Shown here one piece after another: positions 3,541 through 51,749 of a DNA stretch of 64,000 nt. Below the pieces are notes generated by a model. It searched no databases, had not been told where the DNA came from, and saw only the letters and a program-made list of their open reading frames with translations. This DNA comes from an uncultured Lachnospiraceae bacterium (lineage in GTDB: Bacteria; Bacillota; Clostridia; Lachnospirales; Lachnospiraceae). The stretch spans positions 1-64,000 of the forward strand of contig CACWHK010000018.1 of NCBI GenBank assembly GCA_902760755.1, read 5' to 3'. Both the position numbers and the translations under genes were made by a program. The first letter of the stretch is position 1, and the number at the start of each line of letters is the position of its first letter.

Positions 3541-3541
3541 C

Positions 3542-7772: not shown

Positions 7773-7793
7773 CAGGCGAAGGAATGAAATAAC

Positions 7794-7820
7794 CCGTGCG
7801 GGGACGGGATCCCCGCACGG
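7794..7820 (+). other. Perfect intercistronic hairpin between two lipoprotein genes
   Basis: An 11-base-pair perfect stem (CCGTGCGGGGA with TCCCCGCACGG) encloses a five-base loop. There is no T-run after it; an AGGAGG ribosome site for the next gene follows within 12 bases. It is therefore more likely an mRNA stabiliser or processing site than a terminator, a common device for raising solute-binding-protein levels. That role is inference. Confidence 0.6.
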
Positions 7821-7846
7821 AACATCATAAGGAGGATGAAAACATA

Positions 7847-9422: not shown

Positions 9423-9432
9423 GGAATGCGAA

Positions 9433-9475
9433 GGGAGCCTACGCTGCAACGGTGTGGCGTAGGCTCTCTTTGTCC
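9433..9475 (+). terminator. Probable terminator after the sugar-binding protein gene
   Basis: The stem GAGCCTACGC (9435-9444) pairs with GCGTAGGCTC (9457-9466) and is followed by the T-rich TCTTTGTCC. It ends just before the ribosome site of the DUF624 gene, so it would attenuate rather than fully isolate the downstream genes. Confidence 0.6.
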
Positions 9476-14934: not shown

Positions 14935-16488
14935 ATGAGGCTGGCGGCCATATTCAAAGAGCATATGGTTCTTCAGAGGGAGAAAGAGGTTCGGATCTTC
15001 GGTGAGGCAAAGAGCGGAAATGTGATCCGTGTCGAGATCGACGGAATCACGGCGGAGAGCGCTTCAACGGACGGACATTTTATCGTGCGCCTTCCGAAGC
15101 ATGCAGCCGGCGGACCGTACACCATGACCGTTACGGAGATCGGAGTCAATGAGACGGTGATCGAGATCGGTGACGTGTACTACGGTGAGGTCTGGATCGA
15201 GAACGGGCAGTCCAACATCGAGTTCGAGCTGCAGAATTCGGATGGCGGGGAAGCGGAGCTCTCGGAGGCAGACTTCCCGCTGATCCGGTATTTCAAGTGT
15301 ATCAAGACACCGGTGATCGATGATGAGGTGCTGCAACAGGAGGACGGGCTGGAGTGGAAGGACTTCCGGGAAGGACATTTCCGTGATGTCTCCGGCATCG
15401 GATATTTCTTTGCAAAGAAGCTTTATGCGGCACTGAAGGTTCCCGTGGGGATCATCGACTGCTATCAGGGAGGGACCTCCATTTCCTGCTGGCTGTCGGA
15501 GGAGCGTCTGCAGAAGTATCCCGAGGGACGCGTCTATCAGGAGGAATTCGCGGCAGCCATCGAGGGGCAGTCCGAGGAGGACTATGACCGGCTGCTGCTG
15601 GAATACAATGCCATGGTTGAGAAGCACCTGACCCTTGCGGCAGAGGCAAAGGCGAAGAATCCGGAGATCACACCGGAGGAGTTGACAGAGGTTGCGGGTG
15701 ATTATCCGTGGCCGCCTCCGAAGGGACTTCGATCGGCATTTCGCCCGTCAGGGCTGTATCATACCATGCTGGAGAGGATCGCGCCCATCGCGGCAAGGGG
15801 AATCCTTTACTATCAGGGCGAGGAGGATAGCCGGCGGGCTTCCGGTTATGCGGTGCTGCTGTCCGAGCTGATCCGTGAATTTCGGGCACTCTTTGATGAG
15901 AAGAAGCTTCCGGTTGTGATCCTGCAGCTGCCCATGTTTATCGGGCGGAACGAAGAGGATAAAAGAGACTGGGCATACCTTCGCGAAGCGCAGGAGAGAG
16001 CCGTGCTTTCCTCGGAGGCAACCATGCTTGTCCCGCTGATCGACTGCGGCGAGTATGACAATGTTCATCCGACGGATAAGAAAACACCGGGGGAGCGGAC
16101 CGCGGCGTGCGTTCTGGAGGAGATCTACGAGGATCACCGGGACGGCGTGAAGTGCATGCAGGTTCGTGAGATCCAGTGGAAGCGGGGAGAGCTTCTGCTT
16201 CAGTTTGCAAATACCTATGGCAGGCTTAAAACCTGTGAGAATGCACTTCTGGATCTTCGGAAGGAAGGCTCTTCCGGAGAGGACGGACATATCTACGGCT
16301 TTGAGGTGTACATCTCCGGGCAGAAGGCCTGGGTGGTTCCGAAGGTTACGGTCCAGGGCGAGGAGCTCCGGATCGAAGCGAAAGAACCCATCGAAGGCAT
16401 TCGGTACGGATTCTTCAACTATGGAAAGGTGAATCTGTATAACGCCGTCGGGCAGCCACTGTGCCCGTTCAGGAGGATGAAGTACTGA
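14935..16488 (+). CDS. Sialate-O-acetylesterase-like SGNH hydrolase
   Basis: This 517-residue protein belongs to the sialate O-acetylesterase/DUF303 group. MRLAAIFKEHMVLQREKEV is the typical opening, so the ATG at 14935, preceded by GGAAGAAGG, is chosen over an earlier in-frame ATG at 14887. A beta domain (to about residue 85) precedes the catalytic Ser in ENGQSNIEF. Later come YYQGEEDSRR and the His in DNVHPTDKK. No signal peptide is evident, which suggests a cytoplasmic enzyme. As a second deacetylase beside CE2 it may remove acetyl groups at different sugar positions; this is inference, as the family is broad. A terminator follows the stop codon. Confidence 0.78.
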   Translation: MRLAAIFKEHMVLQREKEVRIFGEAKSGNVIRVEIDGITAESASTDGHFIVRLPKHAAGGPYTMTVTEIGVNETVIEIGDVYYGEVWIENGQSNIEFELQNSDGGEAELSEADFPLIRYFKCIKTPVIDDEVLQQEDGLEWKDFREGHFRDVSGIGYFFAKKLYAALKVPVGIIDCYQGGTSISCWLSEERLQKYPEGRVYQEEFAAAIEGQSEEDYDRLLLEYNAMVEKHLTLAAEAKAKNPEITPEELTEVAGDYPWPPPKGLRSAFRPSGLYHTMLERIAPIAARGILYYQGEEDSRRASGYAVLLSELIREFRALFDEKKLPVVILQLPMFIGRNEEDKRDWAYLREAQERAVLSSEATMLVPLIDCGEYDNVHPTDKKTPGERTAACVLEEIYEDHRDGVKCMQVREIQWKRGELLLQFANTYGRLKTCENALLDLRKEGSSGEDGHIYGFEVYISGQKAWVVPKVTVQGEELRIEAKEPIEGIRYGFFNYGKVNLYNAVGQPLCPFRRMKY

Positions 16489-16507
16489 CAATTCCACATT
16501 ATTCGAA

Positions 16508-16540
16508 GAAGGCGCCAATCGTTTCCGATTGACGCCTTTC
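16508..16540. terminator. Bidirectional terminator between convergent genes
   Basis: AAGGCG-C-CAATCG pairs with CGATTG-A-CGCCTT around a TTTC loop, with one mismatch. T-rich sequence follows on both strands (TTTCTCG on +, and TTCTTCG on -). It serves the esterase gene on + and the phosphatase gene on -. Confidence 0.8.
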
Positions 16541-16543
16541 TCG

Positions 16544-17239
16544 TTACTTCTCAAAATGCAGTTTCTCCTGTCGGACACTTCCGAGATGTCCCATGTCATT
16601 GAATATCTCCAGCCGCGGGATCACAAGGTCGCTTTGCTCCGGACAGAGTGCAAAGACGGAGATGGAGCATACCCCGTAGGGAAGGGAGGTCAGCACAAAG
16701 GGAAACGGTAGGTTCAGCAGATGTGAGAAGAGCACTGCTCCGGAGCCTCCGTGCGCAAAGAGTGCGATGGTATCCTCGCAGTTCCGTCGGCAGGAATAAA
16801 GCTTCCCTGTTCGTTCCAAACCATATCCGGCAAGGAAGGTATCAACCCCTTCCGCAACCTTCCGGTACTCTGCAAGACACCGGTTATCACGGAAATAGGG
16901 ATGGTCCATCCACTGATCACTTCCGACGTATTCCGGATGCTCGGTCAGCAGCCGGTAGCCCAGCGTCCAGGGATGTCCTTTGTACGGAACTTCCTCTGCG
17001 CCGGCAGCGGTTCCCCAGTCAATCTCATGCATGAAGGGAAGCAGGGTGACAGGAAGGCCCTTCATTTCTGCCGTGAAGGAAGCTGTTTCCATAGCTCTTC
17101 CCATGGGGGATGAGAAGATGGCCCGGATCGGTTCGGACTCCAGTCTCTTCGCGGTGCACTGTGCCTGAAGCTTCCCATTTTCCGTCAGGCAATCATTGGT
17201 ATAATCAGGTTCACCGTGTCGTACAAAGATAAGACGCAT
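16544..17239 (-). CDS. Histidine phosphatase (phosphoglycerate-mutase-like) family protein
   Basis: This 231-residue cytoplasmic enzyme has the phosphohistidine motif MRLIFVRHGEPDYT at its N-terminus. A conserved Arg follows in FSSPMGRAMETA, a Glu/Asp segment in PFMHEIDWGT, and the second catalytic His in IALFAHGGSGAVL. The family cleaves phosphate esters of small molecules or sugars; the substrate here cannot be deduced. It is transcribed alone on the minus strand, convergent with the mannan locus and divergent from deoC. Confidence 0.85.
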   Translation of the reverse strand: MRLIFVRHGEPDYTNDCLTENGKLQAQCTAKRLESEPIRAIFSSPMGRAMETASFTAEMKGLPVTLLPFMHEIDWGTAAGAEEVPYKGHPWTLGYRLLTEHPEYVGSDQWMDHPYFRDNRCLAEYRKVAEGVDTFLAGYGLERTGKLYSCRRNCEDTIALFAHGGSGAVLFSHLLNLPFPFVLTSLPYGVCSISVFALCPEQSDLVIPRLEIFNDMGHLGSVRQEKLHFEK

Positions 17240-17548
17240 GGCAGGGCTCCTTTCGGATGGCAGATATAGTGGATGGGGAGCTGACGCTCCCCACCAGTAT
17301 AGGATAGATTCTATTTCATGGAGTGATACTCTTCAACGATTGGGCGCAGTTCGTCCTCGGCAGTGTAACGCTCGCACCACCTTCACTCTAGCATACGGCA
17401 GGAAGAAAAGCAACCGGCAAAGTTACTTGATGGTGTCGCAGGGAGACTTTCTCTTTTTGAACATTACTCTTTATGATATAATTATCAGTGGACTGCCCGA
17501 ACAAAGTGAGGGCTTCATGTATTTCCAAAGAAAAGGACAGTGATTTCC
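17240..17548. other. Intergenic region between phosphatase gene and deoC
   Basis: This gap of about 300 bases holds an 8-bp hairpin TGGGGAGC-TGAC-GCTCCCCA (17274-17293) and a short gene remnant on the minus strand (17311-17382). A possible deoC promoter lies near 17454-17482, with TATAAT at 17477-17482 and a weak T-rich -35 17 bases before it. The hairpin matches, in the opposite orientation, a sequence inside the IS remnant at 61544-61908. Confidence 0.5.
17311..17382 (-). pseudogene. Short C-terminal remnant of an unidentified gene
   Basis: Read on the minus strand, 23 codons end in a stop at 17311-17313 and encode ERYTAEDELRPIVEEYHSMK with three residues before it. An in-frame stop lies just upstream. 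The well-formed amphipathic sequence suggests the last residues of a lost gene, but it is short and could be chance. Confidence 0.3.
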
Positions 17549-28739: not shown

Positions 28740-30260
28740 ATGGGAGGAAAGATTACACTCACGGTCACCAGAGGGGAGCTGGAAGGAAAGGTTTATGAAT
28801 ACACGGAGCCGGACCGGATCTTTGTGGGACGGAAGGAGGACTGCGGGATCGTGCTCCCGGAGAACACGGTTTCACGCTATCACTGTCTTCTGGACATCAA
28901 TCCGCCGAAGATCCTGCTGAAGGATTTCGGAAGCCTGAACGGAACCTACCTGAATGATGAGAAGATCGGACAGCGGGAACGGGAGCAGTCCCCGGAGGAG
29001 GCGGAAGGCGAGGACCATGAAACCTACGAGCTCCATGACGGAGACCGGGTGCGCCTCGGAAAGCGGTGCGAGATTACCTGCGCGGTGGTTGTGCAGGAGG
29101 AACCGGAGGAAGCATCTGCATCCGTGGAGCCCAAGGAAGAGGACGAGGAGTCGGAATACCTCTCCGTCTCTCAGGGAGAGCAGAAGGTCTGTGCAGCCTG
29201 CGGAAATATGTTCCCGCCGACCTCGCCGGATGATACGCTTTGTATGGAATGCCGTCAGGATCGGGAGAAGATGCTGGGAGTCATCCTGGCTGCGCTGATC
29301 GGCGGAGCAATCCGGGAGGAAGCACCGGCGGGAGGACCTTCCCCCGTCAAGGGCTTCGAGCGGGTGGAACGGCTCGGAAAGGGCGGCATGGGTGAGGTCT
29401 GGAAGGTGCGGGAGGAATCCACCGGAAAGCTTTACGCTCTGAAGACCATGCTTCCGGAGGCGGCAGCGAATCCGAAGGTAACTGCCATGTTCCTTCGGGA
29501 AGCAAAGCTCTCGGAGTACCTGGATCATAAAAATGTGGTAAGGACCTACCAGACCGGCTGTGCGGATGGCACCTTCTTTATCCTGATGGAGCTTTGTGAG
29601 GGCGGAAGCGTGGATGACCTTATGAAGCGGCAGGGCGGGCGGCTTACTCTGAATATGGCCACCCTGATCATGCTTCAGGTGCTGGACGGTCTGGACTATG
29701 TTCACCATGTGGATGTGGATGTGGAGATCAGGAAGCGGGGTATCTTCGGAAGAAAGACCATGAATGCCAGAGGACTGGTGCACCGGGATTTTAAGACGGG
29801 AAATATCTTCCTTTCGGACCGGGGAGATCATCCGGTGGCGAAGGTGGCGGACTTCGGTATGGCCAAGGCCTTCCAGGCAGCCGGCTTTTCGAGCATCAGC
29901 AATGACAATGCGGTCCGGGGGACGGTTCCCTTCATGCCGCGTCAGCAGGCACTGGACTGCAGGTACGCAAAGCCGGAGGTGGATGTCTGGGCGGCTGCGG
30001 CCAGCTATTATCATATGCTGACCGGTGAATTTCCGAAAAACTTCCGTTCCGGGAAAAATATGTGGCAGGCCATCGTTACGGAGAAGGCGGTTCCCATCCT
30101 GGAACGGGGAGTCATGCTCCCCTCCGGGCTGGCTGAGGTGATCGACCGGGCTCTGCAGGAGGAGCCGGAGATCGGCTGCAAATCCGCGGCAGAGCTTCGG
30201 GAAGCTATCGTGGACAGAATCCCGGCGTTCACAAGAGAGTATTGCCGGGACTTCATATAA
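28740..30260 (+). CDS. FHA-zinc ribbon-Ser/Thr protein kinase
   Basis: This 506-residue soluble protein has three parts. An FHA phospho-threonine-binding domain (about residues 5-115) has the key Gly-Arg at 30-31, SRYH at 45-48 and NGT at 67-69. A zinc ribbon has CAAC at 151-154 and CMEC at 168-171. A Hanks-type kinase (about 205-490) has the glycine loop GKGGMGEV, Lys235 in YALKTM, HRDFKTGN with the catalytic Asp350, and DFG at 371-373. The usual APE segment reads MPRQQ instead. An insert rich in Val/Asp and Arg precedes HRD. AGGAGG precedes the ATG at 28740. It begins a six-gene operon with a phosphatase, a second kinase and a protease. Confidence 0.9.
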   Translation: MGGKITLTVTRGELEGKVYEYTEPDRIFVGRKEDCGIVLPENTVSRYHCLLDINPPKILLKDFGSLNGTYLNDEKIGQREREQSPEEAEGEDHETYELHDGDRVRLGKRCEITCAVVVQEEPEEASASVEPKEEDEESEYLSVSQGEQKVCAACGNMFPPTSPDDTLCMECRQDREKMLGVILAALIGGAIREEAPAGGPSPVKGFERVERLGKGGMGEVWKVREESTGKLYALKTMLPEAAANPKVTAMFLREAKLSEYLDHKNVVRTYQTGCADGTFFILMELCEGGSVDDLMKRQGGRLTLNMATLIMLQVLDGLDYVHHVDVDVEIRKRGIFGRKTMNARGLVHRDFKTGNIFLSDRGDHPVAKVADFGMAKAFQAAGFSSISNDNAVRGTVPFMPRQQALDCRYAKPEVDVWAAAASYYHMLTGEFPKNFRSGKNMWQAIVTEKAVPILERGVMLPSGLAEVIDRALQEEPEIGCKSAAELREAIVDRIPAFTREYCRDFI

Positions 30261-30291
30261 ATGACACGGACGGTGAAGAGAGGAGACGAAA

Positions 30292-31053
30292 ATGAAGACA
30301 GAGCATTTTCAGTATGAAATAAAAGCTGCCGGTCTTACGGATATCGGCTCCCTCAGGGAGGAGAATCAGGATGAGGTGATCCTTTCTCCGAAGAAGGGTC
30401 TCTTTGCCGTGTCCGACGGAATGGGGGGACTGCCCCAGGGCGGGGACGCGTCGGCCTATGTGTGCAGGGCATTTCCCATGGTGATGGAGAGCTGTGAGCC
30501 TCTTCTGGAGAAGGCCACGACGGAGGAAGCAGCGGGAATCCTCCGGGAGACGGTTCAGATGATCAGTGACGGGCTGTATCAGAGGGGAAATTCCTCCGGC
30601 ATTTTCATGTTCGGGGCAACCCTTGCAGGGGTCATGCTCTTTCAGGAACAGGCGGTTTTTGTATGTCTCGGTGACAGCCGGGGGTACCTCCTTCCGAAGT
30701 ATAAGAAGAAGCTGATCCAGGTCACGGAGGATATGAATGTGGCCGGGTATCTTGTGCGTATGGGGCGGATGACGAAGGAAGCGGCGAAGGGAAGCCCTGC
30801 CAGCTCCCAGCTTACGGCCTTCGTGGGCATGCCGGCACCGGCAACACCGGAGACCTTTGTTGTGGACGTGAAGCCGGGAGACCGGATCCTTCTTTGCAGC
30901 GACGGGCTGTACGGTATGGTTCCGGAGCGGGAGATCGCACGGCTCATGCGAAACAGCGAGAATCCGGAGACCGTGTGCAGGGAGCTGATCGATGCAGCAA
31001 ACCGACATGGGGGAAGGGATAACATATCCGCAGTCTATATTCAGATAATTTAA
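30292..31053 (+). CDS. PP2C-type Ser/Thr protein phosphatase
   Basis: This 253-residue metal-dependent phosphatase is of the PrpC/Stp type. It shows the metal-binding motifs SLREENQDE, FAVSDGMGG with its Asp, GDSRGY, LLCSDGLYGM and GGRDNISA in the expected order. No membrane segment or signal peptide is present. It starts 31 bases after the first kinase and ends 12 bases before the second kinase, so it very likely reverses their phosphorylations. A GAGAGGAGA ribosome site precedes the ATG. Confidence 0.93.
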   Translation: MKTEHFQYEIKAAGLTDIGSLREENQDEVILSPKKGLFAVSDGMGGLPQGGDASAYVCRAFPMVMESCEPLLEKATTEEAAGILRETVQMISDGLYQRGNSSGIFMFGATLAGVMLFQEQAVFVCLGDSRGYLLPKYKKKLIQVTEDMNVAGYLVRMGRMTKEAAKGSPASSQLTAFVGMPAPATPETFVVDVKPGDRILLCSDGLYGMVPEREIARLMRNSENPETVCRELIDAANRHGGRDNISAVYIQII

Positions 31054-31065
31054 GGGGGGCTGAGT

Positions 31066-34000
31066 ATGGGGGATGAGAGAACAATCTATGACGGCAGTGA
31101 GAGCAGCTCGGACAGCGATGCTACCGTATATGAGGGTAGTGAGAGCAGCTCGGACAGTGACGCTACCGTATACGAAGGAAGCGAGAACAGCTCTGACGGG
31201 GATGCCACGGTGTATGAGAGCGGCTCTGACGGGGATGCCACGGTGTATGAGAGCAGCTCTGACCGTGACGCTACCGTGTATGAGGAGAGGGACGCAACGG
31301 TCGAAGAGAAGGAAGAGAAAACTCCGGTGGGGCTGCGGATCACAACCGGCTTTGCGATGCACGGAACCCCACGGAGGGGCGGATATATTCTGGGCACCTA
31401 TCGTGTGGACTCGGATGCCATCCACGGTGGTATGGGCTCCATCTGGCGCGTGCATCATGAGAACTGGAATGTGGATCTGGCCATGAAGCGTCCGAAGCCG
31501 TCCTATTTCGTGACCGAGAAACAGAGAGATGATTTTACGGAGGAGTGCAATGCATGGATCAGGCTGGGCCTGCATCCGAACATTGTATCCTGTTACTATG
31601 TCCGCCGGATCGAGGACGTACCTACCATCTTCTCCGAGTGGATGGATCGGGGCAGTCTGGAGGACTGTATTCAGGACCGGTCCCTCTATCAGGGGTCGGA
31701 GGAAGAGGTGAAACGATGTCTTCTGGATATCGCGATCCAGTTTGCCCGGGGACTGCATTTTGCGCATGAGCAGGGCCTTATCCATCAGGATGTGAAGCCG
31801 GCGAATCTGCTGCTGAATAAGAACTGGGAGGCCAAGGTCAGCGACTTTGGTCTGGCGAAGGCGCGCACCAATCTTGCGATCCCGGAGGATCCGTGGCGTG
31901 GATCGGATGGGGATCCCTCCGCAACCATCGTCACACCTGCGGGAGGGAAGACCCCGGCGTACTGCTCGCCGGAGCAGGCAGGGAACCAGCCCCTGACCCG
32001 TCGTTCGGATATCTACAGCTGGGCTGTCAGTGTTCTGGAAATGTACCTCGGCTCCAAGCCCTGGGCCCATGGCCGTGAGCTGACCGGCCCTATGGTAGGG
32101 ACTGTCTGCAACGAGTATTTCCCCATGTGCCGCGTTCCGATCCCGGAGCGTCTGCAGCGACTTCTGGCGCGTTGTCTCGCCAATGATCCGGATGACCGGT
32201 ATCATGACTTCGGCAGGGTGGAGGTCGCACTCAGGGAGATCTATACTATGGAGACGGGAGAGAGCTATCCCCGTCCCGCACCTCAGTCGGCAGCGAATAC
32301 GGCCGATTCCCTGAACAACCGGGCCCTCAGCATGATCGACCTCGGACAGTCGGAGAAGGCGCTGGAGCTTTGGAATGCCGCGCTTGCGGTGGATACCCGG
32401 AACGTAAATGTACTGACGAATCAATCTCTCTATCTTTGGAGAACAGGAAAATACAATGATGTTGAACTGCATCGGATCTTCCGGCAGCTGGAGGAGGAGT
32501 ATGGTGCGGAGGCGCTTTGCGATGACTTCTTCCGTGAGCGTGGATCGTCTTCGTTTGAGATTACGGTTCCGGAGTACATTTCCGGAAGGGGGTCGGACGG
32601 ACGAAGGAACCTGCTGGCGGTATCGGCCTGTCTGGACCGGGGGATCATTTCCTTCCTGACCAGAGAACGGGTCGAGGACGAGGTTTATCTCTATGTTCGC
32701 CAGTTTGATGTAAATACCGGGCGGGGAATCGGCTTCTGGCCGGATCCGGGAACGGAACCGCAGATCCTCTTCTCACCGAAGGAGAGCCGAAGCATCCTTT
32801 CGAAGGATGGCCGGCATCTCTTTGTTGCCATGACCGGAGGAGAAGCAAAGCTCTGGGATGTCCGGTCCCAGACCCTTCTCAAGGAGTATCATTCCTACGC
32901 GGAGCAGCCGAAGGAGTATAAGGCGTTTGAATCAGGGGAGCTTCCCATCGGGGAGAACCTGTATGCGATCAGGAACGGGCATACGCTTTTCGTAAAGCAG
33001 ATGGGGAATCACCGGATCCTGCAGACCCTGGAGCTGCCGGCGCTTAGCTCGGCGGATTCGGAAAAGGAACGGTATCCGGAGATTCTCGTGGACGGGGAAG
33101 GAAAGCAGCTGGTGCTTTATTCCAGAGTTCGGGATCAGCTTCGCTGGTATCTGCTCCCGCTGGACTCCCTGATCGGAAAGCCGGGAAGCATGCCCTATCG
33201 CGTTTCTTACCCGACGTCAATCCATGAAGCAACCACCATGGAGCAGAAGGTACAGCAGTGCCTGGAGAGCTTCGAACAGGCAGCGGAGCAAAAAGACGTA
33301 CAACGGATGCTGGCCGGTTACGAAAAAATGAAGAACTATTCCAAGAGCGAAGGAAAGAGCCCGCTGCTTCGCATGAACGAAGTGCTGCTTCGGTATCGGA
33401 AGCCGGTGGGGCTTTACGGGATCGGACCCGCGGCGGATACGCCGGAACACCTGGCCTGGGTCGTTGGTCTGGCCAAAGACCGGTGGGAATGTGATTACTG
33501 TGTTGCCCGGTCGGGAAAGGAACACCGGGTGCTGTACATTTCCGGGGAACGGACCGGTGATCAGAGGATCCTAGAGCGGACGACTCTGACGGAAGAGATT
33601 TACTTGCAGGAAACCGGAGAAATCCTTCGAAAAGAGTACGGGATCGGGCAGGAGGATAGCTGGGTAAATCAGATCCTTGCGATGGATCCCACCGGGCGGA
33701 TCGTGATCCTGGAGGTGGGAGACCGGAAGGCACCCTTCCATAAAATCCGCGGGTACGAGGGGGATTTCCGGATCCTCCGGCTGGATCTGGAGAAGGGGGA
33801 ATCCCGGGGGATCGCGGAGCGAAAGTCCCTCGGAGCCGAGCGGGAATGGTGCGCGCAGCCGGAGAGCGGTGCGGTCCTTTCCTGGGTATCCCGTAACAGC
33901 TACTTTTGGATGAACGAACCGGGGAAGGAAGAACGGGAGACCATCAATCTGCCGGAGGATACGTGTGATCCGGTAAAGCGGATTGTGGCATCCCGGGACG

Positions 34001-34359
34001 GAAAGCAGGTTCTGGTCTGCACCGCACAAAAGCTATTCATCTACGAGCCGGGGACGGCAGTGTGGAAGCCCTTCTTTGCCTCGGACGCAAAGATCGGGAG
34101 GGTAATCCCGACGGATGACCTTAAGATGATGCTTGTTACGATCGAACGGGGATACGGAGCACTGGATGACTGGATGCTGGTGCGGACGGAGGATGGAGAG
34201 GTGCTCTGGAAGGATACCTCCGAGGCCTTCGGAAGCAGCGGCGAAGCCAATCGCCTCGCGTCCTTCGAGGAAGGCAACCTGTATCTTACGGACCTGTATG
34301 GGAATCATGTGAGTAGCTGTTTCTGGGAGTTTGAAACACCGGAGGATCCGGTAGTATAG
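31066..34359 (+). CDS. Ser/Thr kinase with N-terminal TxxE array, TPR and propeller-like C-terminus
   Basis: The 1097-residue protein starts with a low-complexity, Ser/Asp-rich leader (residues 1-85) holding seven Thr followed at +3 by Asp or Glu (T6, T20, T34, T48, T59, T70, T78), mostly as DATVYE. The kinase domain (about 105-405) has HGGMGSIW, Lys141, HQDVKPANLL with catalytic Asp242 (Gln replaces the usual Arg) and DFG 260-262, then a CSPEQ segment. A TPR-like pair follows near residues 410-470. The remainder has repeated beta blocks such as HLFVAMTGGEAKLWDV, resembling WD-type propeller blades. No membrane helix is seen. The Thr array is a plausible docking site for the FHA domain of the first kinase. 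Confidence 0.88.
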   Translation: MGDERTIYDGSESSSDSDATVYEGSESSSDSDATVYEGSENSSDGDATVYESGSDGDATVYESSSDRDATVYEERDATVEEKEEKTPVGLRITTGFAMHGTPRRGGYILGTYRVDSDAIHGGMGSIWRVHHENWNVDLAMKRPKPSYFVTEKQRDDFTEECNAWIRLGLHPNIVSCYYVRRIEDVPTIFSEWMDRGSLEDCIQDRSLYQGSEEEVKRCLLDIAIQFARGLHFAHEQGLIHQDVKPANLLLNKNWEAKVSDFGLAKARTNLAIPEDPWRGSDGDPSATIVTPAGGKTPAYCSPEQAGNQPLTRRSDIYSWAVSVLEMYLGSKPWAHGRELTGPMVGTVCNEYFPMCRVPIPERLQRLLARCLANDPDDRYHDFGRVEVALREIYTMETGESYPRPAPQSAANTADSLNNRALSMIDLGQSEKALELWNAALAVDTRNVNVLTNQSLYLWRTGKYNDVELHRIFRQLEEEYGAEALCDDFFRERGSSSFEITVPEYISGRGSDGRRNLLAVSACLDRGIISFLTRERVEDEVYLYVRQFDVNTGRGIGFWPDPGTEPQILFSPKESRSILSKDGRHLFVAMTGGEAKLWDVRSQTLLKEYHSYAEQPKEYKAFESGELPIGENLYAIRNGHTLFVKQMGNHRILQTLELPALSSADSEKERYPEILVDGEGKQLVLYSRVRDQLRWYLLPLDSLIGKPGSMPYRVSYPTSIHEATTMEQKVQQCLESFEQAAEQKDVQRMLAGYEKMKNYSKSEGKSPLLRMNEVLLRYRKPVGLYGIGPAADTPEHLAWVVGLAKDRWECDYCVARSGKEHRVLYISGERTGDQRILERTTLTEEIYLQETGEILRKEYGIGQEDSWVNQILAMDPTGRIVILEVGDRKAPFHKIRGYEGDFRILRLDLEKGESRGIAERKSLGAEREWCAQPESGAVLSWVSRNSYFWMNEPGKEERETINLPEDTCDPVKRIVASRDGKQVLVCTAQKLFIYEPGTAVWKPFFASDAKIGRVIPTDDLKMMLVTIERGYGALDDWMLVRTEDGEVLWKDTSEAFGSSGEANRLASFEEGNLYLTDLYGNHVSSCFWEFETPEDPVV

Positions 34360-34383
34360 GAGAAGTTGAGGAGGGTTTGGCTT

Positions 34384-37300
34384 ATGGTTGGTTCCCATAC
34401 CATGGATTATGTATATGCCCGTGCGTCGGCGGAAATGAAGCACGGAAACCGAAAGCTCATGTGCATCGAGGATGTATTTCTCGGTATCCTGAAGCTGAGT
34501 GAGATGAAAGCGGAAGATATCCTGCAGGGATCTCCGATCCTTCTTGCTGCGACAAATATCGAGATCCGGGCGCTGAAGACGCTGCTCACGGAGGGCTATA
34601 AGGTAGATACCACCCACCTTCGGGGTATCCTTCGCCAGACGCTGCTGCACCTTCCTCCCATCGAGAAGGAAAATGTGGAGGAGTACTGGAATCGCGCGAA
34701 GAAGTTCGCTGCGGAGCGGAAATCCGAGCAGTATTTTCCTACAGATATGCTGCGGGCCATCGTGGAGAAACCCACGGAGATCCTGAAGCAGGTGTGTGAT
34801 ATCGCAGACTGGAACAAGCCGCACGAGGAAGCGAAGAAACCGGGGGAGGAGAAGGCGCCTGTGCCGGATGGCGAGGACGTTCCCTACGACGGAAAGGGAG
34901 GGAAGAATCCCCGGAGTGTCAAGGTGGTGGACGGCATGATCATGGCGGATAACGAGGAGGAAAATGCACGGGAAATGAGTCCGGACTACCTCTCGGAGCT
35001 GACGGGACGGATCCGCAGACTCCGTGCGAAGCTGCTTTCCACCGTGAAGGGGCAGGACCATGTGGTGCATGCATTTGCGGAGGGACTCTTTGCCGCAAAT
35101 GTACTGGCAGCCAGCGACGAGAACCGGAAACGCCCCCGTGCCATCTTTGCCTTCGTGGGACCTCCGGGAGTCGGAAAGACCTTCCTGGCAGAGCAGGCAG
35201 CAGAAGAACTGGGACTTCCCTTTAAGCGGTTTGATATGTCCACCTATTCGGACCATCAGTCCCACGGCGGACTTGTGGGCTGGGAGAAGAGCTATCAGGC
35301 AGCGGCACCGGGTGTACTGACGGGCTTTGTGGCTGAGAACCCCTGCTGTATCCTTCTCTTTGATGAGATCGAGAAGGCACATTTGAATACGATCCAGCTG
35401 TTTTTGCAGGTGTTGGATGCAGGACGCCTTACGGACCGTTATATTGGCCGGGAGGTAAGCTTTAAGGATACGATCATTATCTTTACCAGCAATGCAGGAA
35501 AGTCCCTCTATGAGGGCGAGGCCCGGCAGAACGCGGCCGGGATTCCCCGGAAGGTGATCCTGAATGCGCTGGAGACGGAGAAGGATCCGCGGACGGGATC
35601 CCCCTTCTTCCCCGGAGCCATCACCAGCCGTCTGGCCACAGGCTGGCCCATCCTGTTCAATCATCTGGAGCCCCACAATCTGGAGAAGATCAGTGAGAGA
35701 GAGATCTGCCGATTTGGAGAATTGTTTGAGAAGCAGTATGGAGTGAAGACGGAGTTTGATCCGCTTCTTGCCACGGCACTGCTCTTCCGCGAGGGTGGAG
35801 CTGCGGATGCCCGCACCCTCCGGGCGCAGACGGAGCTGTTCTTTAAGAATGAGATTTTCAAGGTCTGCCGCCTCTGGAACGAGGAAAGCTTTGAGAAGGT
35901 GGTAAGGACGTTGGAGAAGATTACCTTCTCTGTGGAAACGGATTCCCTTACACCGGAGTTAAAGCCGCTGTTCTTCCCGGATGAAAATGCGGAGATCCTG
36001 ATCTACGGAGATACGACCTTTGCGGATCACTGCAGGGAGGCCATGCCCGGGTTTATCTTTTATGACACCTGTAACGTAGAGGAAGCGCTTACCATTGCGG
36101 GAGAGAAGAACATCCGCATGGTGCTTCTGGATATTGCGGAAAAGAGCAGGACAACCGAGGAAATCCTCAGCACGGTCTATGAGGAGGATCTGCTTCTCTC
36201 CGTCGGAGCCTTTGACAATAAGCCCATGGCTGCCGGAGCCTTCCGGGACGGAGGCGGACTGTTCCGAAAGCTTCGGGAACGTCTTCCGGAGCTGCCGGTC
36301 TACCTGCTGGAGAAGAAGGACTTTGTGATCGACGAGGAGCTGACCATGAGCTTTGTCCGGGCAGGAGCCCGGGGCAAGCTGACGGAACCGGAGGAGGACT
36401 TTACCGTATTTGAGGATATTCTCACGGATGTCTGCCGGGAGCTCTACCTGCAGGAGGTGGCTGCGACACTTGCAGCCGAACGGAAGAACCTCTCCTTTGA
36501 GACGGCTCCGAAGCTGTCCGAGGACCAGAAGGAGGTGGTGATCCGCCTTCGCGATTTCTCGCTGAAACGGGCTGCGGAAGGCGAGGATGCCGGCAGCATT
36601 CTCAGCGACGCTGAGAAACCGAATACGAGATTTGACGACGTGATCGGAGCAAGGGACGCGAAGGACGAGCTTCGTTTCTTCGTGGAGTTCCTGAAGAATC
36701 CGAAGAAATACACGGCCAAGGGCTTAAAACCGCCGAAGGGTGTGCTGCTGTACGGCCCTCCGGGCACGGGCAAGACCATGCTGGCGCGTGCCATGGCGGG
36801 AGAATCCGACGTTGCATTTATTCCCGCCAATGCGTCCAACTTTGTGAATAAGTATGCAGGCTCCGGCCCTGCCGCGGTCCGTGACCTGTTCCAGAGGGCC
36901 AGACGATATGCTCCGGCGGTGGTATTCATCGACGAGATCGATGCCATCGGACGGAAGCGGGAGGGAACCACCTACGGACGGTCGGAGGAGACAACGCTTA
37001 ACTCCCTTCTTACGGAAATGGACGGCTTCTCCGTGGATCCGAAGCGACCGGTCTTTGTGCTTGCAGCCACAAACTTCGCAGTGGAAGCAGGAGGCCGCGG
37101 CATCGGAGAACTGGATCCGGCGCTGGTTCGTCGGTTTGACCGGAAGATCCTGGTGGATCTGCCGGATGAGGCAGACCGGGAGAAGCTGCTCCGGATGCTG
37201 ATCGGAAAGAACCCGACGCATGTGGTCAGTGAAGGGATGCTGCACCGGCTGGCAGAGCGGTCCACGGGTATGAGCCCCGCGAATCTGACAGGTGTGGTGG

Positions 37301-37929
37301 AGCTGGCAAACCGTATGGCCGTGAAGGCCGGAACGCCGGTGGATGATGAAATCCTCGAGGAAGCCTTCGAGCTGACAAAGCACGGCGAGAAGAAGGACTG
37401 GGGCTATGAATCTCTGGAGCGTGTGGCGCGGCACGAAAGCGGGCATGCCTTCCTCTGTTATCTTGGCGGGAATACGCCGGCCTATCTTACCATCGTTGCC
37501 CGGGGCGAGCATGGCGGATATATGGAGCATTCATCGAAGGACCTCGGTCCGCTGGCGACGAAGGAGGAGCTTCTTTCCCGCATTCGGACCAGTCTGGGCG
37601 GACGGGCTGCGGAGATCGTATACTATGGCGAGAAGGACGGAGTATCCACAGGCGCAGCCGGAGATCTGGAGAACGCCACGAAGCTGGCAGCGGCCATGAT
37701 CTCATCCTACGGTATGGATGAGGACTTCGGCCTGGCCTATATGGAGCCAAGAGATGCCATGAAGGATCCGGACTTCCGCAGAAAGGTAAATGAACTGCTG
37801 CGGGGCGAGATGCGGAGAACCGTGGAGATCCTGCAGGAGAACCGTGCAAGGATCGACCGTCTGGTGAGTGAACTGATGAAGAAAAATAAGCTGACCGCGG
37901 AGGAGATGGAAGTACTGCTGAAGGAGTAG
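34384..37929 (+). CDS. Chimeric Clp-type AAA / receiver-like / FtsH-type AAA-M41 protease
   Basis: This 1181-residue soluble protein joins four parts. Residues 1-140 resemble a Clp N-domain. Residues 215-480 form a ClpA/B-like AAA module with Walker A GPPGVGKT (259-266) and Walker B ILLFDEIEKAH. About 535-690 looks like a receiver fold (MVLLDI, then AGARGKL). From about 745 an FtsH-like AAA has GPPGTGKT, VVFIDEIDAIGR and the arginine region LDPALVRRFDRKI. An M41 peptidase follows, with HESGH at 1017-1021 and the third zinc ligand Asp in TGAAGDLENAT. The membrane helices of FtsH are absent. ATG 34384 follows GAGGAGG. The peptidase looks intact. Confidence 0.9.
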   Translation: MVGSHTMDYVYARASAEMKHGNRKLMCIEDVFLGILKLSEMKAEDILQGSPILLAATNIEIRALKTLLTEGYKVDTTHLRGILRQTLLHLPPIEKENVEEYWNRAKKFAAERKSEQYFPTDMLRAIVEKPTEILKQVCDIADWNKPHEEAKKPGEEKAPVPDGEDVPYDGKGGKNPRSVKVVDGMIMADNEEENAREMSPDYLSELTGRIRRLRAKLLSTVKGQDHVVHAFAEGLFAANVLAASDENRKRPRAIFAFVGPPGVGKTFLAEQAAEELGLPFKRFDMSTYSDHQSHGGLVGWEKSYQAAAPGVLTGFVAENPCCILLFDEIEKAHLNTIQLFLQVLDAGRLTDRYIGREVSFKDTIIIFTSNAGKSLYEGEARQNAAGIPRKVILNALETEKDPRTGSPFFPGAITSRLATGWPILFNHLEPHNLEKISEREICRFGELFEKQYGVKTEFDPLLATALLFREGGAADARTLRAQTELFFKNEIFKVCRLWNEESFEKVVRTLEKITFSVETDSLTPELKPLFFPDENAEILIYGDTTFADHCREAMPGFIFYDTCNVEEALTIAGEKNIRMVLLDIAEKSRTTEEILSTVYEEDLLLSVGAFDNKPMAAGAFRDGGGLFRKLRERLPELPVYLLEKKDFVIDEELTMSFVRAGARGKLTEPEEDFTVFEDILTDVCRELYLQEVAATLAAERKNLSFETAPKLSEDQKEVVIRLRDFSLKRAAEGEDAGSILSDAEKPNTRFDDVIGARDAKDELRFFVEFLKNPKKYTAKGLKPPKGVLLYGPPGTGKTMLARAMAGESDVAFIPANASNFVNKYAGSGPAAVRDLFQRARRYAPAVVFIDEIDAIGRKREGTTYGRSEETTLNSLLTEMDGFSVDPKRPVFVLAATNFAVEAGGRGIGELDPALVRRFDRKILVDLPDEADREKLLRMLIGKNPTHVVSEGMLHRLAERSTGMSPANLTGVVELANRMAVKAGTPVDDEILEEAFELTKHGEKKDWGYESLERVARHESGHAFLCYLGGNTPAYLTIVARGEHGGYMEHSSKDLGPLATKEELLSRIRTSLGGRAAEIVYYGEKDGVSTGAAGDLENATKLAAAMISSYGMDEDFGLAYMEPRDAMKDPDFRRKVNELLRGEMRRTVEILQENRARIDRLVSELMKKNKLTAEEMEVLLKE

Positions 37930-37976
37930 AGTCATTTTTTGCGGTTGACGGGCCGAATAATCCGTACGAGGTGAAA

Positions 37977-38249
37977 ATGGAAAAGTATCGGTATCAAATC
38001 GTTCGAGACTATAAACTGAGAGAAACCGTGAAGTACCCGGACGACCCGGCTCTGCGGGATACAGTGCTTCGGTACGGTGAGGAGTTGGGGGACCACGGAC
38101 GGTTTACACTGAAGTTCGTGGGAATCGACCGGAGGATCGAAGTGCTGATCGAGGCGGACAGTGAAGAGCTCTCCCGGCAGTATGCCAAAGCCTTTCAGGA
38201 TTTTCTGGAACGCGGGGGTTATCTTACGGATATGAAAGATACGGAATGA
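37977..38249 (+). CDS. Small protein of unknown function
   Basis: This 90-residue soluble, highly charged protein has no motif I recognise. It alternates beta-like strands (RFTLKFVGIDRRIEVLIEA) with a C-terminal helix (SEELSRQYAKAFQDFLERGG), suggesting a compact alpha/beta fold. The ATG at 37977 follows GAGGTG. Its stop overlaps the nuclease start codon by four bases (ATGA), so both are translated together, and it sits 47 bases after the chimeric protease. An adaptor or inhibitor role in the operon is possible but unsupported. Confidence 0.65.
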   Translation: MEKYRYQIVRDYKLRETVKYPDDPALRDTVLRYGEELGDHGRFTLKFVGIDRRIEVLIEADSEELSRQYAKAFQDFLERGGYLTDMKDTE

Positions 38250-39337
38250 AGAAACGAACAAGGATCATCCTATACATTTTCATAGCGGTTCTCGGACTGG
38301 CAGGAATCGGATATCAGTGGCAGAGAAGCCGTGACAGCGGAAGAGGGGAGCAGGAAGCATCTGCTTCAGAAGAGAAATCGACAGAGAAACCGGAGGCGCC
38401 GGAGAAGGCCTTTGATCTGTCGAAGCTCCCTCCGTACGCCGGAGAGCCGTATGTGACGGTGGACGAAAACAGGCCGTTCTTCAGGGAAGAGGAAAGGCGC
38501 CGGACGGATACATTTGAAACCTACAGTGCGCTGGATGCACTGGGTCGCTGCGGGGTCGCGTATGCGAACCTGAGCCCGGAGCTTATGCCTGAGGAGGACC
38601 GGGGGCAGATCGGACAGATCCGGCCCTCGGGCTGGCATACGGTGAAGTACAGCGATCTGATTGAGGATAACTACCTCTACAACCGCTGTCACCTGATCGG
38701 ATTTGCCCTGGCCGGGGAGAACGGGGAGACCAACCTCATTACCGGCACAAGGTACCTGAATGTAGAGGGGATGCTTCCCTTCGAGATCCGGGTCGGAGAT
38801 TATATCCGCGCCACCGGGAATCACGTGCTGTACCGCGTGACACCGGTGTTTGAGGGAGAAAACCTGGTGGCATCCGGAGTGGAGATGGAGGCCTGGTCCG
38901 TGGAGGATGCAGGTGCCGGACTCTGCTTTCATGTGTATTGTTACAACGTGCAGCCGGGGATTGAGATCGACTATCTGACGGGAGAGAGCCGGAGAGCCGA
39001 GGAGAAGGCGGAGGGAACCACCGCGAAGGAACCCGGGACCACCGAAAGGACCGAATCAACGGAAGTCACGGAATCTACTGAATCCAAAGAGTCCACGGAA
39101 GCTCCGGTGGGAGAACGAACGCTCCCGACGGAGGAGGACACCGGATCGGAACAAGGAAGCGTGGAACCGGAAAAGACCACCTTTATTTTGAACACCAGCT
39201 CCATGAAGATCCATCTTCCTTCCTGCGACAGTGTGAAGGATATGAAGGAGAAGAACAGGAAGGAATACACCGGTACCATCGAGGAATTAAAGGAACTCGG
39301 ATATCAGCCCTGCAAGCGTTGTCTGGCAGGGTATTAA
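38246..39337 (+). CDS. Membrane-anchored DNA/RNA non-specific endonuclease
   Basis: This 363-residue protein has one N-terminal membrane helix (about residues 6-24) and an extracytoplasmic linker. The nuclease domain is of the beta-beta-alpha-metal type, with YNRCHLIGFALAGEN (the His is the general base; the usual DRGH is NRCH, as in the DNA-entry-nuclease-like branch) and NLITGTRYLNVEGM with the metal-binding Asn. A Thr/Glu/Ser-rich linker of about 65 residues follows. The C-terminal domain has two Cys pairs or sites (LPSCDSV and PCKRC), like small metal-binding domains found on such nucleases. It ends the kinase-protease operon before a terminator. Confidence 0.87.
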   Translation: MKKRTRIILYIFIAVLGLAGIGYQWQRSRDSGRGEQEASASEEKSTEKPEAPEKAFDLSKLPPYAGEPYVTVDENRPFFREEERRRTDTFETYSALDALGRCGVAYANLSPELMPEEDRGQIGQIRPSGWHTVKYSDLIEDNYLYNRCHLIGFALAGENGETNLITGTRYLNVEGMLPFEIRVGDYIRATGNHVLYRVTPVFEGENLVASGVEMEAWSVEDAGAGLCFHVYCYNVQPGIEIDYLTGESRRAEEKAEGTTAKEPGTTERTESTEVTESTESKESTEAPVGERTLPTEEDTGSEQGSVEPEKTTFILNTSSMKIHLPSCDSVKDMKEKNRKEYTGTIEELKELGYQPCKRCLAGY

Positions 39338-39366: not shown

Positions 39367-39416
39367 AAAATGAGGCCGTTTTCGTTAATGTTTTTAACGT
39401 AGCGGCCTCATTTCTT
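39367..39416 (+). terminator. Terminator of the kinase-protease operon
   Basis: AAATGAGGCCG (39368-39378) pairs with CGGCCTCATTT (39403-39413), with an inner GTTAA/TTAAC stem, followed by CTTAAT. The stem is strong and the T-run modest. Confidence 0.8.
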
Positions 39417-39456: not shown

Positions 39457-39485
39457 TTGACACACAATACTGTGCGAGATATAGT
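39457..39485 (+). promoter_or_regulatory. Strong promoter of the PadR operon with a possible operator
   Basis: TTGACA (39457-39462), 17 bases, then TATAGT (39480-39485). The imperfect palindrome TACT...AGTA spans the spacer and the -10 box (about 39468-39486), the expected place for an autoregulating PadR protein to bind. The promoter is clear; the operator is inference. Confidence 0.75.
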
Positions 39486-49442: not shown

Positions 49443-51749
49443 ATGAGGGGTAAAAAAAGCATAAAGGTGGCTTTGGCCATGCTGATCCTGGTCACGGCGT
49501 TCTTTGCCACGGGTCTTACGGTCTATGCCGTCCCGGCTGCACCGGGCGTAACGGCAGGAGATGAGGACGGTGCATGCCATTCCGTCCCCGGAGATCAGCT
49601 GGTGACACTGGAGCTTCTGAAGGAGAAGCAGGCAGCGGCTGCAAAGGGACAGCTTCGGAACGCTCCCGCCGCAGACGGAAGCAGGATGACGGAGAAAACT
49701 GCATACAGTGTTCCTCTGCTGATCCTGGTTGTGGGCTTTGAGGGCAGCTCGAAGACCCTCCCGGATGGCATCTCCTATAATTCGGAGTATGACTGGGGCG
49801 AGACGGTGTTCCGGCAGGAACGGTCTCTGGCCGGCTTCTACAGTGATATGTCCTACGGACAGTTCACCTTCACACCGGCAAAGGAGAGCAGTGCCTACGG
49901 TGTGGACGGGAACACAAATGTGAAGGATACGGCGAATGACGGAATCGTCCATGTGACCGTTTCCAATGCCCACGGACGCTGGGGAGATTCCTCCCACGCG
50001 GAGCATCTCACCCATTTTGATGCATTTAAGGCTGCGATCCTTGCGGCAGATGATTATGTGGATTTCTCGGCCTATGATACCAACGGGAACGGAGTGATCT
50101 CCACGGATGAACTGGCTCTGGGGATCATTGTGGCAGGATATGAGGCATCCGCTGAGGACAGACCTCTCTCCCAGCTCGGAGAGGATCAGTATCTCTGGGC
50201 TCACGCCGCATCCCTTTCCTATATGGAGCAGGGAACGACCCGGACGGATGCGGATCTTCCGAGGCCGGACGGGACCCTGGTGAACAACTATATCGCAGTG
50301 GCGGAGACCATACGAACCTACAGCGGGAGCGAGGTGATCCTCAAACAGGCCCCTCTCGGAGTCATGGCTCATGAGCTTGGCCACTATCTCGGACTTCCGG
50401 ATCTCTATGATGTGGATTATCTGAAGGATGCGGAGTGGAGCGATTATGAAGTCTATAAGCTCAGTCTGATGGCATCCGGATCCTGGGCACAGGATCAAAA
50501 CGGGGAGTATACGATCTATCCTTTTGATCCCTGGTGCAGGATAAAGCTTGACTGGATGCTGCCGACATTGATCGAAGAGAACGGGATCTATACCGTGACG
50601 ACGGATACCTACCGGAAGACGGAGGATGTGAACTGCTACCTTATACTCACTGCAAATGAGGGAGAGCTTTTCCTGATCGAGAATCGCGGCCTTGGCTCCT
50701 GGGATAACGGCATCAGTAAATTCTATAAGTATACGGAGGAAGGGTCCGGCGAAACGAAGCTTCCGGAGGGAGGAATCGTGATCTGGCATCTGGATGAAAC
50801 GGTGTTGGAGGAGTATAGAGAACGCGAGAATACGGCGGACCACAGGCCGTTTATCATGCCCCTCTTCCCGGAGAAGGAATCCGACGGCTCTTATACCCTG
50901 ATCCGGAAGAAAAAGGGCGGCAGTGTGGTAAAACAGCCCTTCCTTACGGCAGAGTACCTGACGGAGAATTGCAACGAGCTTTCCGAGGGCTTCCGCCTTC
51001 CCTACTACGGCGGAGGAAGCGATGCAAACTCCCTTGGCGGACGGTTTAATTCCTGTATCGGACTGCAGATCCTTTCCGATACGGCAGGGACGGACATGCA
51101 GTTCCAGGTCAAGCTGGACAATCATATTCCCCTGGGTCAGGACTTTATTGAAAACAGAGTGGAAGCCACAAGCAGGAAGGATGGCGGATATGATCTGGTC
51201 CACTACTGCATGAACTGCGGGATGGAGACGGACCGGACACACTATGTGATCCCGAAGATCCTTGTGGGCTGGCAAAAGAGCGGAAGCAAATGGTACTACT
51301 ATGACAGTAAGGGAAAGAAGCTGACCGGATGGCAGGAGATCGATAAGAAGTGGTATTACTTCGGTTCGGACGGAGTCATGAAGACCGGATGGCTTTCCTT
51401 CGGGAACAAGTGGTACTTCCTCAGCTCTGACGGAACCATGAAGACGGGCTGGAAACAGCTTGGCGGTAAGTGGTATTACTTTAATTCCAACGGAACCATG
51501 AAAACCGGGTGGCTATCCTCCGGCGGAAAATGGTACTACTTCAGTAAGGACGGTACCATGGCTGTCGGCTGGAAGGAGATCGGAGGGAAATGGTACTTCT
51601 TCCGGGATGGAGCCATGAAGACCGGATGGCTTTCCTCCGGCGGAAAGTGGTACTACTTCACGAAGAACGGAGAGATGGTAACCGGAACGGTGACCATCGG
51701 AGGGGTAACCTACCGCTTCAACGCAGCAGGAATCTGTCTTAACCCGTAA
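49443..51749 (+). CDS. Secreted M6-type metalloprotease with cell-wall-binding repeats
   Basis: The 768-residue protein has a signal peptide (about residues 1-29, ending VYA). The catalytic zinc motif HELGHYLGLPDLYD lies at about residues 310-323, in an immune-inhibitor-A-like (M6) domain. A calcium-loop-like segment (DTNGNGVISTDE) occurs near residue 215. From about residue 605 there are seven or eight Trp/Tyr repeats of about 20 residues (for example GWLSSGGKWYYF), the choline/cell-wall-binding type. It would degrade proteins while bound to the cell wall, its own or a neighbour's. GGAGGG precedes the ATG. Confidence 0.88.
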   Translation: MRGKKSIKVALAMLILVTAFFATGLTVYAVPAAPGVTAGDEDGACHSVPGDQLVTLELLKEKQAAAAKGQLRNAPAADGSRMTEKTAYSVPLLILVVGFEGSSKTLPDGISYNSEYDWGETVFRQERSLAGFYSDMSYGQFTFTPAKESSAYGVDGNTNVKDTANDGIVHVTVSNAHGRWGDSSHAEHLTHFDAFKAAILAADDYVDFSAYDTNGNGVISTDELALGIIVAGYEASAEDRPLSQLGEDQYLWAHAASLSYMEQGTTRTDADLPRPDGTLVNNYIAVAETIRTYSGSEVILKQAPLGVMAHELGHYLGLPDLYDVDYLKDAEWSDYEVYKLSLMASGSWAQDQNGEYTIYPFDPWCRIKLDWMLPTLIEENGIYTVTTDTYRKTEDVNCYLILTANEGELFLIENRGLGSWDNGISKFYKYTEEGSGETKLPEGGIVIWHLDETVLEEYRERENTADHRPFIMPLFPEKESDGSYTLIRKKKGGSVVKQPFLTAEYLTENCNELSEGFRLPYYGGGSDANSLGGRFNSCIGLQILSDTAGTDMQFQVKLDNHIPLGQDFIENRVEATSRKDGGYDLVHYCMNCGMETDRTHYVIPKILVGWQKSGSKWYYYDSKGKKLTGWQEIDKKWYYFGSDGVMKTGWLSFGNKWYFLSSDGTMKTGWKQLGGKWYYFNSNGTMKTGWLSSGGKWYYFSKDGTMAVGWKEIGGKWYFFRDGAMKTGWLSSGGKWYYFTKNGEMVTGTVTIGGVTYRFNAAGICLNP

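Follow-up and report, generated by a model that had tools for sequence, protein, structure and literature searches.

Two kinases, a phosphatase and a hybrid Clp-FtsH protease encoded in one gene set of a Lachnospiraceae bacterium: a candidate phospho-switch for controlled proteolysis

The question raised by this locus is whether a compact run of genes for protein kinases, a phosphatase and a protease in an uncultured Lachnospiraceae bacterium makes up one system, and what such a system might control. The window analysed here is a stretch of 64,000 nucleotides of contig CACWHK010000018.1 (assembly GCA_902760755.1, positions 1 to 64,000), from a draft genome of 2.58 Mb in 78 contigs that is 88% complete. 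It contains six intact open reading frames (ORFs) on the plus strand between 28740 and 39337, named A to F here (Table 1): a kinase with an FHA domain (A), a PP2C-type phosphatase (B), a second kinase (C), a Clp-FtsH protease (D), a small protein (E) and a nuclease (F). An earlier interpretation made from the letters alone (the sequence-only reading) had proposed a six-gene operon for phosphorylation-controlled proteolysis. With ATG starts at 28740 for A, 34384 for D and 37977 for E, the ORF listing bears out the six frames, their strand and the gaps it had given, namely 31, 12, 24 and 47 bases followed by a 4-base overlap of E and F. Domain content was checked with Pfam, NCBIfam and PADLOC scans. 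We lean towards the view that five of these genes, A-B-C-D-E, constitute a phospho-switch that would control a dedicated cytosolic AAA+ protease.

Within the genus all 61 genomes were searched, and outside it samples of genomes. Full-length A, C and close relatives of D (at least 70% identity) occur in exactly the same six of the 61 genus genomes (G000, G1006, G1014, G1015, G1028 and G1052). The chance of two blind sets of six coinciding is 1.8e-8, a figure that serves as a guide only, given the relatedness of the genomes and the physical linkage of the genes. At E<=1e-35, C was found in one of 299 genomes sampled from the family, the window's own, and A-B-C-D is also present in G553 and G397, which belong to another family. 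The sequence-only reading had let its proposal hang on whether the genes co-occur elsewhere, and in these genomes they do.

Linkage is kept across the carriers and in another family, but the order itself varies. G1052 has a regulator-like gene of 392 amino acids (aa) followed by A-B-C-D-E; in G1028 a homologous regulator-like gene precedes A-B (with a contig break within B), a HAD gene and C-D-E; G1006 has A, a gene of about 400 aa, B, a DUF285 repeat protein and C-D-E; and G1015 has A-C-B-E-D. The G1014 genes lie on three contigs, the first with a regulator-like gene, A-B and a HAD gene, the second with C, three genes and D, and the third with a fusion of E to leucine-rich repeats (LRR), two genes and F. 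In G553 and G397 a gene resembling helix-turn-helix (HTH) regulators is followed by A-B-C, a small gene and D, and locus L015, cut upstream by the contig end, has a fused double C, one gene and D. Over these nine loci, A and B are found in eight, C and D in nine and E in six (the genus members). To judge from this record, A-B-C-D-E travels as a unit. The three regulator-like genes of the genus are mutually homologous, as are those of the G553/G397 pair, with no match between the two groups; HTH_3 matches in them are weak (G553, 5.5e-4, below cut-off; G1028, 0.046; none in G1014 or G1052). The HAD genes of G1014, G1028 and G1039 are also mutually homologous, and in G1039, a genome without A or C, an orphan B is followed by the HAD hydrolase (L121:569-2134). 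In G1021 a decayed piece of A lies beside an S4-like gene (L122:10512-10769), which suggests loss of the system at that site.

By these searches D is a genuine family, with a sparse and scattered occurrence. At E<=1e-100 it was detected in three of the 299 genomes sampled from the family (the window included) and four of 392 from the order, and at 1e-150 with alignment in two of 391 from the class; a D of any kind occurs in eight of the 61 genus genomes. A scan of a genome collection gave at least 80 loci; of the best 80, six were kept as near full-length D relatives (L015-L019 and L048), and the other 74 were dropped because their matches lay mainly in the FtsH part. Nine D proteins, each of them linked to kinase C, group in a single clade (support 100/100). 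On the D tree, with L018 labelled 'other', the kinase-link label changes once, against a mean of 6.8 changes after shuffling, and none of 500 shuffles gave so low a number. The other eleven D proteins are more distant, at about 34-48% identity where a figure is given (none for G947). Genes for YbjN-like proteins (one to three, about 150 aa each) lie near eight of these eleven (L095, L099, L101, L016, L019, L135, L136 and L018) according to a hidden Markov model (HMM) built from nine such sequences, the L018 copy being cut by the contig end; Pfam YbjN itself matched in L095, L016 and L019, and the HMM detected none near D in L096, L017 and L048. When G013, G288, G626, G397, G553 and G947 were searched, close relatives of A and C were found only in G397 and G553, the rest having more distant kinases. 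Because YbjN-like proteins are regarded as peptide-binding chaperones in a passage of PMC9503650, one type of D may, by analogy, work with a chaperone-like adaptor and the other with kinases.

Several proteins close to divergent D genes were recorded. TIR proteins are encoded at L018:2-1060, L099:8025-9086 and L099:16709-19900, one with an N-terminal TIR, one with a C-terminal TIR and one with a TIR and WD40-type repeats; L099:514-4197 encodes a DUF4062-NTPase-TPR protein; and near the D of L048 are a DUF4011/helicase/MTES nuclease protein (787-4752), a protein with a sub-threshold RyR match (6315-9467) and a kinase-like protein (15633-17348). The D homologue of G013 (L096:10627-15468; 1613 aa) has, by alignment and reading, one Clp-type and two FtsH-type AAA modules ahead of M41.

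For A, the Pfam matches are FHA (1.8e-16) and Pkinase (8.6e-37), and the FHA residues GR, SRxH and NG as well as the kinase K, E, HRD and DFG residues are kept in 8/8 aligned sequences. The zinc ribbon is kept in 6/8; missing in G1015 and G1052, it was rejected as a defining feature of A. B scored 172 bits against the Stp1-like model NF033484, under the cut-off of 230, and the core residues of its five motifs are kept in all eight aligned sequences. Together with the protease residues described below, the catalytic residues that had been called intact are conserved in the window and in the aligned homologues.

C gave Pfam matches to Pkinase (3.5e-33) and, weakly, to TPR (0.0031), and its N-terminal tail is marked by an array of threonines: 7/10 Thr in the window protein stand in T-[VI]-x-[DE] units. 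The fractions in homologues are 13/16 in G1028, 7/10 in G1015, 6/9 in G553 and 5/11 in G1052, and in each of these five proteins none of 5000 shuffles reached the observed number; weaker values were obtained for G1006 (3/5; one shuffle) and G397 (3/7; three shuffles). Over the nine C homologues read, the array is present in eight and strong in seven, and outside the tail C has zero to two such units among 35-50 Thr. The narrow DNA pattern for D-[AG]-T-V-Y-[DE], which misses motif variants, forms clusters in the 61 genus genomes only in C (five matches in the window and three each in G1052 and G1028), with one match in the C of G1006 and of G1015 and none in that of G1014; elsewhere it gives scattered singles, including in genomes free of the system, so that 29 of the 61 genomes have at least one match. 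Within the reach of this narrow pattern, the idea that other proteins of these genomes have a C-type tail was rejected. The T-[VI]-x-[DE] array would suit a class of FHA ligands written pTXXD, the form given for the FHA1 domain of Rad53 in a title within the reference list of PMC3146460, and the simplest reading is that the FHA domain of A binds the phosphorylated tail of C.

The opposite end of C appears to be an exchangeable sensor. Its C-terminal region is of one type in the window, G1028 and G1015, of a second in G1006, G1014 and G1052, and of a third in G553 and G397, which L015 resembles, while the kinase and TPR portions remain about 48-71% identical across the sensor types; the sensor end is thus, on these alignments, exchangeable between species. 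The sequence-only reading had described a propeller-like C-terminus: Pfam detected no propeller in the window protein, but WD40 matches were obtained in relatives (G553, G397 and L015), and residues 538-788 of window C match the G553 protein weakly (E ~9e-5). Because the first and third types show weak mutual matches (window-G553, E ~1e-4; G1015-G397, 0.002), they may be one propeller fold, and the second type matches neither, save for 42 residues between the window and G1014 (4.5e-4). A single-sequence model of the sensor end, with a predicted local distance difference test (pLDDT) score of 36.6, was not used.

The C of G1015 has an additional domain at its N-terminus, and this is a homologue of the N-domain of D (HMM 2.6e-26 in a single-sequence search and 1.4e-22 against all ORFs of the annotated loci; hhalign 99.1%, 26% identity), and the D of that species retains its own copy. 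Such sharing is expected if C and D meet a common partner or each other. It also speaks against the idea of two independent units, a kinase-phosphatase pathway (A-B-C) and a quality-control protease (D-E), that share an operon for expression only. That idea could draw on the distant D proteins that occur without these kinases, mostly with YbjN-like genes, and on the orphan B in G1039; with the same six genus carriers, retention in another family, linkage kept despite changed order and a single kinase-linked D clade on the other side, we regard it as improbable.

The chimeric architecture proposed for D held for the most part. Its first AAA module is firmly Clp-type (AAA_2, 1.2e-33) and is followed by an FtsH-type AAA (8.2e-49) and Peptidase_M41 (2.1e-28), but the likeness of the N-domain to Clp_N is marginal at best (lowest E=0.054, obtained with a relative; no match in window D). 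The M41 site comprises HESGH at 1017-1021 and the third ligand D1094, and the Walker A and B motifs of both AAA modules, HExGH and the Asp ligand are kept in 20/20 D homologues. Relative to the customary 19-residue hydropathy limit of 1.6, the maximum in window D is 1.41, with no clear membrane helix, in line with the soluble M41 protease that had been described; four of the 20 homologues lie slightly over the limit (G553 1.69, G397 1.72, L048 1.62 and G1023 1.63). From the hydropathy profile, D is predicted to be cytosolic, with no evident membrane anchor. The AlphaFold2 model (mean pLDDT 70.7; predicted template-modelling score 0.45) renders the N-domain helical, with low confidence there, and the linker, which had no Pfam match over residues 501-730, as alpha/beta, the term 'receiver-like' being purely descriptive. 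The best Foldseek matches of the model are FtsH proteins (E 6.4e-30), with a TM-score of only about 0.2 over the whole query. The ratio of nonsynonymous to synonymous rates (dN/dS) in seven pairs is 0.10-0.25, indicating purifying selection, a rough value as dS exceeds 1.

FtsH itself (TIGR01241) resembles D in its FtsH-type AAA and in M41 with HExxH and the Asp ligand. D differs in lacking an evident membrane segment and in having an extra N-domain, a Clp-type AAA and the receiver-like linker in front; it scored 360.2 bits against this model over residues 742-1175 only, where the cut-off is 600. The Clp/Hsp100 feature, an AAA_2 module with Walker A and B, is present in D.

From the components, their intact active-site residues, the co-inheritance, the tail array and the N-domain that C has in common with D in one species, all read directly from the sequence, we infer who phosphorylates what, the binding of FHA to the tail, the position of D as output and the direction of control. 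C would be the input kinase, whose exchangeable sensor answers a signal, and its tail would be phosphorylated by C itself or by A. A would act as reader and second kinase, its FHA domain docking on the phosphorylated Thr array of C; this docking would unite both kinases and let the signal spread, and B would reset the phospho-marks. The output would be D, a soluble protein that combines a Clp-type unfoldase ring with an FtsH-type protease and would be either phospho-regulated or fed clients through the A-C complex, with E as a small accessory. A kinase-phosphatase-reader circuit appears well supported by its parts and co-inheritance, and that it would control D is the most economical inference. 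Phosphorylation-controlled proteolysis, as first proposed, is a good conjecture, to which the FHA-ligand-like array on C and the D-type N-domain on the C of G1015 add weight; the control itself is a prediction from sequence.

Some observations pull the other way. The more distant D homologues lack these kinases, so control by phosphorylation is not a built-in property of the D family; the readable tail of L015, which is the junction of its fused C copies, has no array (0/2 Thr; all 5000 shuffles reach this); the tail of G1014 has just two units (2/7 Thr; equalled by 35 of 5000 shuffles); and a promoter scan gave no match between the S4-like gene and A. A more specific version of the phospho-switch, which we hold only tentatively, is a bacterial control resembling a phospho-degron: the multi-Thr tail of C would be a polyvalent scaffold read by A, the kinase complex would deliver clients to D or unlock it via the N-domain shared with C in one species, and the sensor would be swapped between species, with the core of signalling and protease parts retained.

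A comparable arrangement of parts is found in type VI secretion, with the PP2C phosphatase PppA and, in the larger system, the AAA protein ClpV, which assembles or disassembles a protein complex. By analogy, D might be mainly a remodelling machine or scaffold with proteolysis incidental, and the module would act on a protein complex in that way; the like set of kinase, PP2C, FHA and Clp-type AAA would fit this. With HExGH and the third zinc ligand in 20/20 D homologues, and with ClpV (TIGR03345, 120.9 of 884.95 bits) and TagH (TIGR03354, 17 of 120.25) far under cut-off, we consider such a role very unlikely. The Thr-phosphorylation pathway of type VI secretion, a process under the control of PpkA and Fha according to the abstract of PMC3953482, is alike in its kinase, its PP2C, its FHA reader of phosphothreonine (pThr) and, in the larger system, its Clp-family AAA; the present set differs in having FHA and a kinase joined in a single protein, a second kinase, and a Clp-FtsH protease hybrid as its AAA machine.

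PknB/PrkC-Stp1 pathways, with FHA substrates such as FhaA and GarA, are alike in pThr writing, PP2C erasing and FHA reading, but neither A nor C is a PASTA membrane kinase (NF033483, 134 and 118 of 450 bits); additional kinases, more distant ones, are encoded in these genomes, and some have the size of PrkC (a label by length only). The MAD6 kinase of MADS defence (NF047741) gave 98.2 bits for A and 95 for C against a cut-off of 460. In the TerY-P triad, the vWA protein TerY stands beside a PP2C and a kinase, whereas no vWA match was obtained among the six proteins with Pfam at E<=0.1 (for D, among the best 25 of 40 rows). The same absence sets the operon apart from the MoxR-vWA FtsH ternary conflict systems, which, in the part of the account consulted (eLife 2020, PMC7159879), have MoxR and vWA proteins and two FtsH-type AAA, the first inactive, some carrying propellers or ClpN repeats. 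The likeness lies in an FtsH-class ATPase within a variable multi-gene system; the first AAA of D is Clp-type with intact Walker motifs. Passages of PMC10910872 report kinases and phosphatases that accompany vWA systems in the vicinity of CRISPR loci; the A-E set is not among them. The view that no described pathway combines these parts held among the best matches (titles and beginnings of abstracts) in one open-licence library, where no description of the A-E set was found and the nearest, as far as its consulted part goes, is the different system of PMC7159879; novelty is not established by this.

The module may serve in stress, in development or in defence. For defence, C would sense an invader-related signal and the kinases would unleash D on essential or invader proteins, a rival account of purpose compatible with the phospho-switch as mechanism. 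In its favour are the patchy spread (any D in 8/61 and C in 6/61 genus genomes), the decayed A in G1021, the exchangeable sensor ends, variable inserted genes such as the LRR/DUF285 protein, and the TIR proteins (L018, L099) and helicase-nuclease (L048) near divergent D genes. Against it, PADLOC, with a library without cut-offs, gave only kinase and AAA matches common to many models, and no known defence system was recognized; the scanned flanking genes look chromosomal (CorA-like, S4-like, PadR-like, class I tRNA synthetase and phosphorylase). Nor did cargo on mobile elements find support in searches with D: plasmids gave no match at E 1e-90; of 26 matching phage records none covers 80% of D; and among the best 80 of 493 viral-contig loci, judged by residue ranges and lengths alone, no full-length D was evident, several covering residues 249-1180 on about 1.3 kb of DNA only. 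Owing to the TIR proteins near two divergent D genes and the patchy spread, an inducible defence or conflict system is kept in view, as a rather doubtful purpose.

E is 90 aa long from ATG 37977 or 92 aa from GTG 37971. No Pfam match was found in the window protein; NCBIfam TIGR01455 matched at 2e-4 over model positions 369-439 of 442. An HMM of the other five E sequences found window E at 1.1e-30 and a GlmM at 1.9e-14, and leave-one-out HMMs over the six sequences found the left-out E at 8.8e-40 to 2.3e-10 and GlmM at 9e-16 to 2.3e-11, the GlmM being confirmed by 544 bits against a cut-off of 447.55. In G1052, E was initially identified by eye; a phmmer search with only the window sequence had missed it. 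The phosphohexomutase C-terminal domain PF00408 gave 19.1 bits in the G1014 homologue, under the gathering threshold of 23.1, and none in window E. E is, by these profiles, a stand-alone relative of the last GlmM/phosphohexomutase domain. In G1014 it is fused to BspA-type leucine-rich repeats (L124:466-1626).

F did not withstand comparison as the sixth member of the system. The stretches examined around D contain no homologue of it in G1006, G1028, G1015 and G1052 (4/5 other carriers), and F-like DNA is present in at least nine D-negative genomes among the matches listed, which cover 41 genomes (G1005, G1009, G1012, G1020, G1021, G1029, G1033, G1034 and G1042); among the stretches examined, homologues occur only in L123 (G1021, without D) and L124 (G1014, a few genes past the E-like gene). 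We judge F a probable bystander, which may be co-transcribed here because of its 4-base overlap with E. Its hydropathy reaches 1.91 at residue 7.

Table 1. Positions in the window of the genes and other features of the locus
Feature	Position	Strand	Description
Gene A, FHA-zinc ribbon-Ser/Thr kinase	28740..30260	+	FHA ~6-107; CxxC...CxxC 151-171; kinase ~206-492 (HRD type)
Gene B, stand-alone PP2C-type Ser/Thr phosphatase	30292..31053	+	PP2C_2 2.4e-11 (Pfam)
Gene C	31066..34359	+	N-terminal Thr array; Ser/Thr kinase ~110-390 (HQD type); TPR ~413-444; C-terminal sensor region, perhaps a divergent propeller
Tail array in C	31081..31308	+	seven T-[VI]-x-[DE] units: Thr 6, 20, 34, 48, 59, 70, 78
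Gene D	34384..37929	+	helical N-domain; Clp-type AAA (Walker A 259, Walker B 323); receiver-like alpha/beta linker ~530-700; FtsH-type AAA ~741-1000; M41 protease
Gene E, small soluble protein	37977..38249	+	stand-alone diverged phosphohexomutase (GlmM) C-terminal domain
Gene F, DNA/RNA non-specific endonuclease	38246..39337	+	Endonuclea_NS_2 4.5e-20; N-terminal hydrophobic stretch
Terminator-like inverted repeat after F	39367..39413 (about)	+	11-base arms; direct reading of sequence

The locus is flanked upstream by the S4-like gene, which ends at 28597, and downstream by the PadR-like gene, which starts at about 39561; these labels derive from sub-cut-off NCBIfam matches. The terminator said to end the operon corresponds to an inverted repeat that can be read after F but is missing from the automated scan, its loop being longer than the scan permits. 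A promoter match of 11/12 lies at 39457-39485, ahead of the gene downstream of F. Further along, the window encodes an M6 peptidase-like protein with choline-binding repeats (49443-51749) and a 2036-aa protein with SpaA-type domains (55404-61514).

To our knowledge, bacterial Ser/Thr phosphorylation has rarely been tied to one dedicated protease, and the hybrid AAA+ layout of D lies outside the Clp, Lon and FtsH layouts known to us. If the phospho-switch is true, A to E would form a self-contained cassette of writer, reader, eraser and destroyer that includes a hybrid AAA+ protease; the tail array makes FHA-phosphopeptide binding directly and cheaply testable, and the swappable sensors would offer a route to finding the signal.

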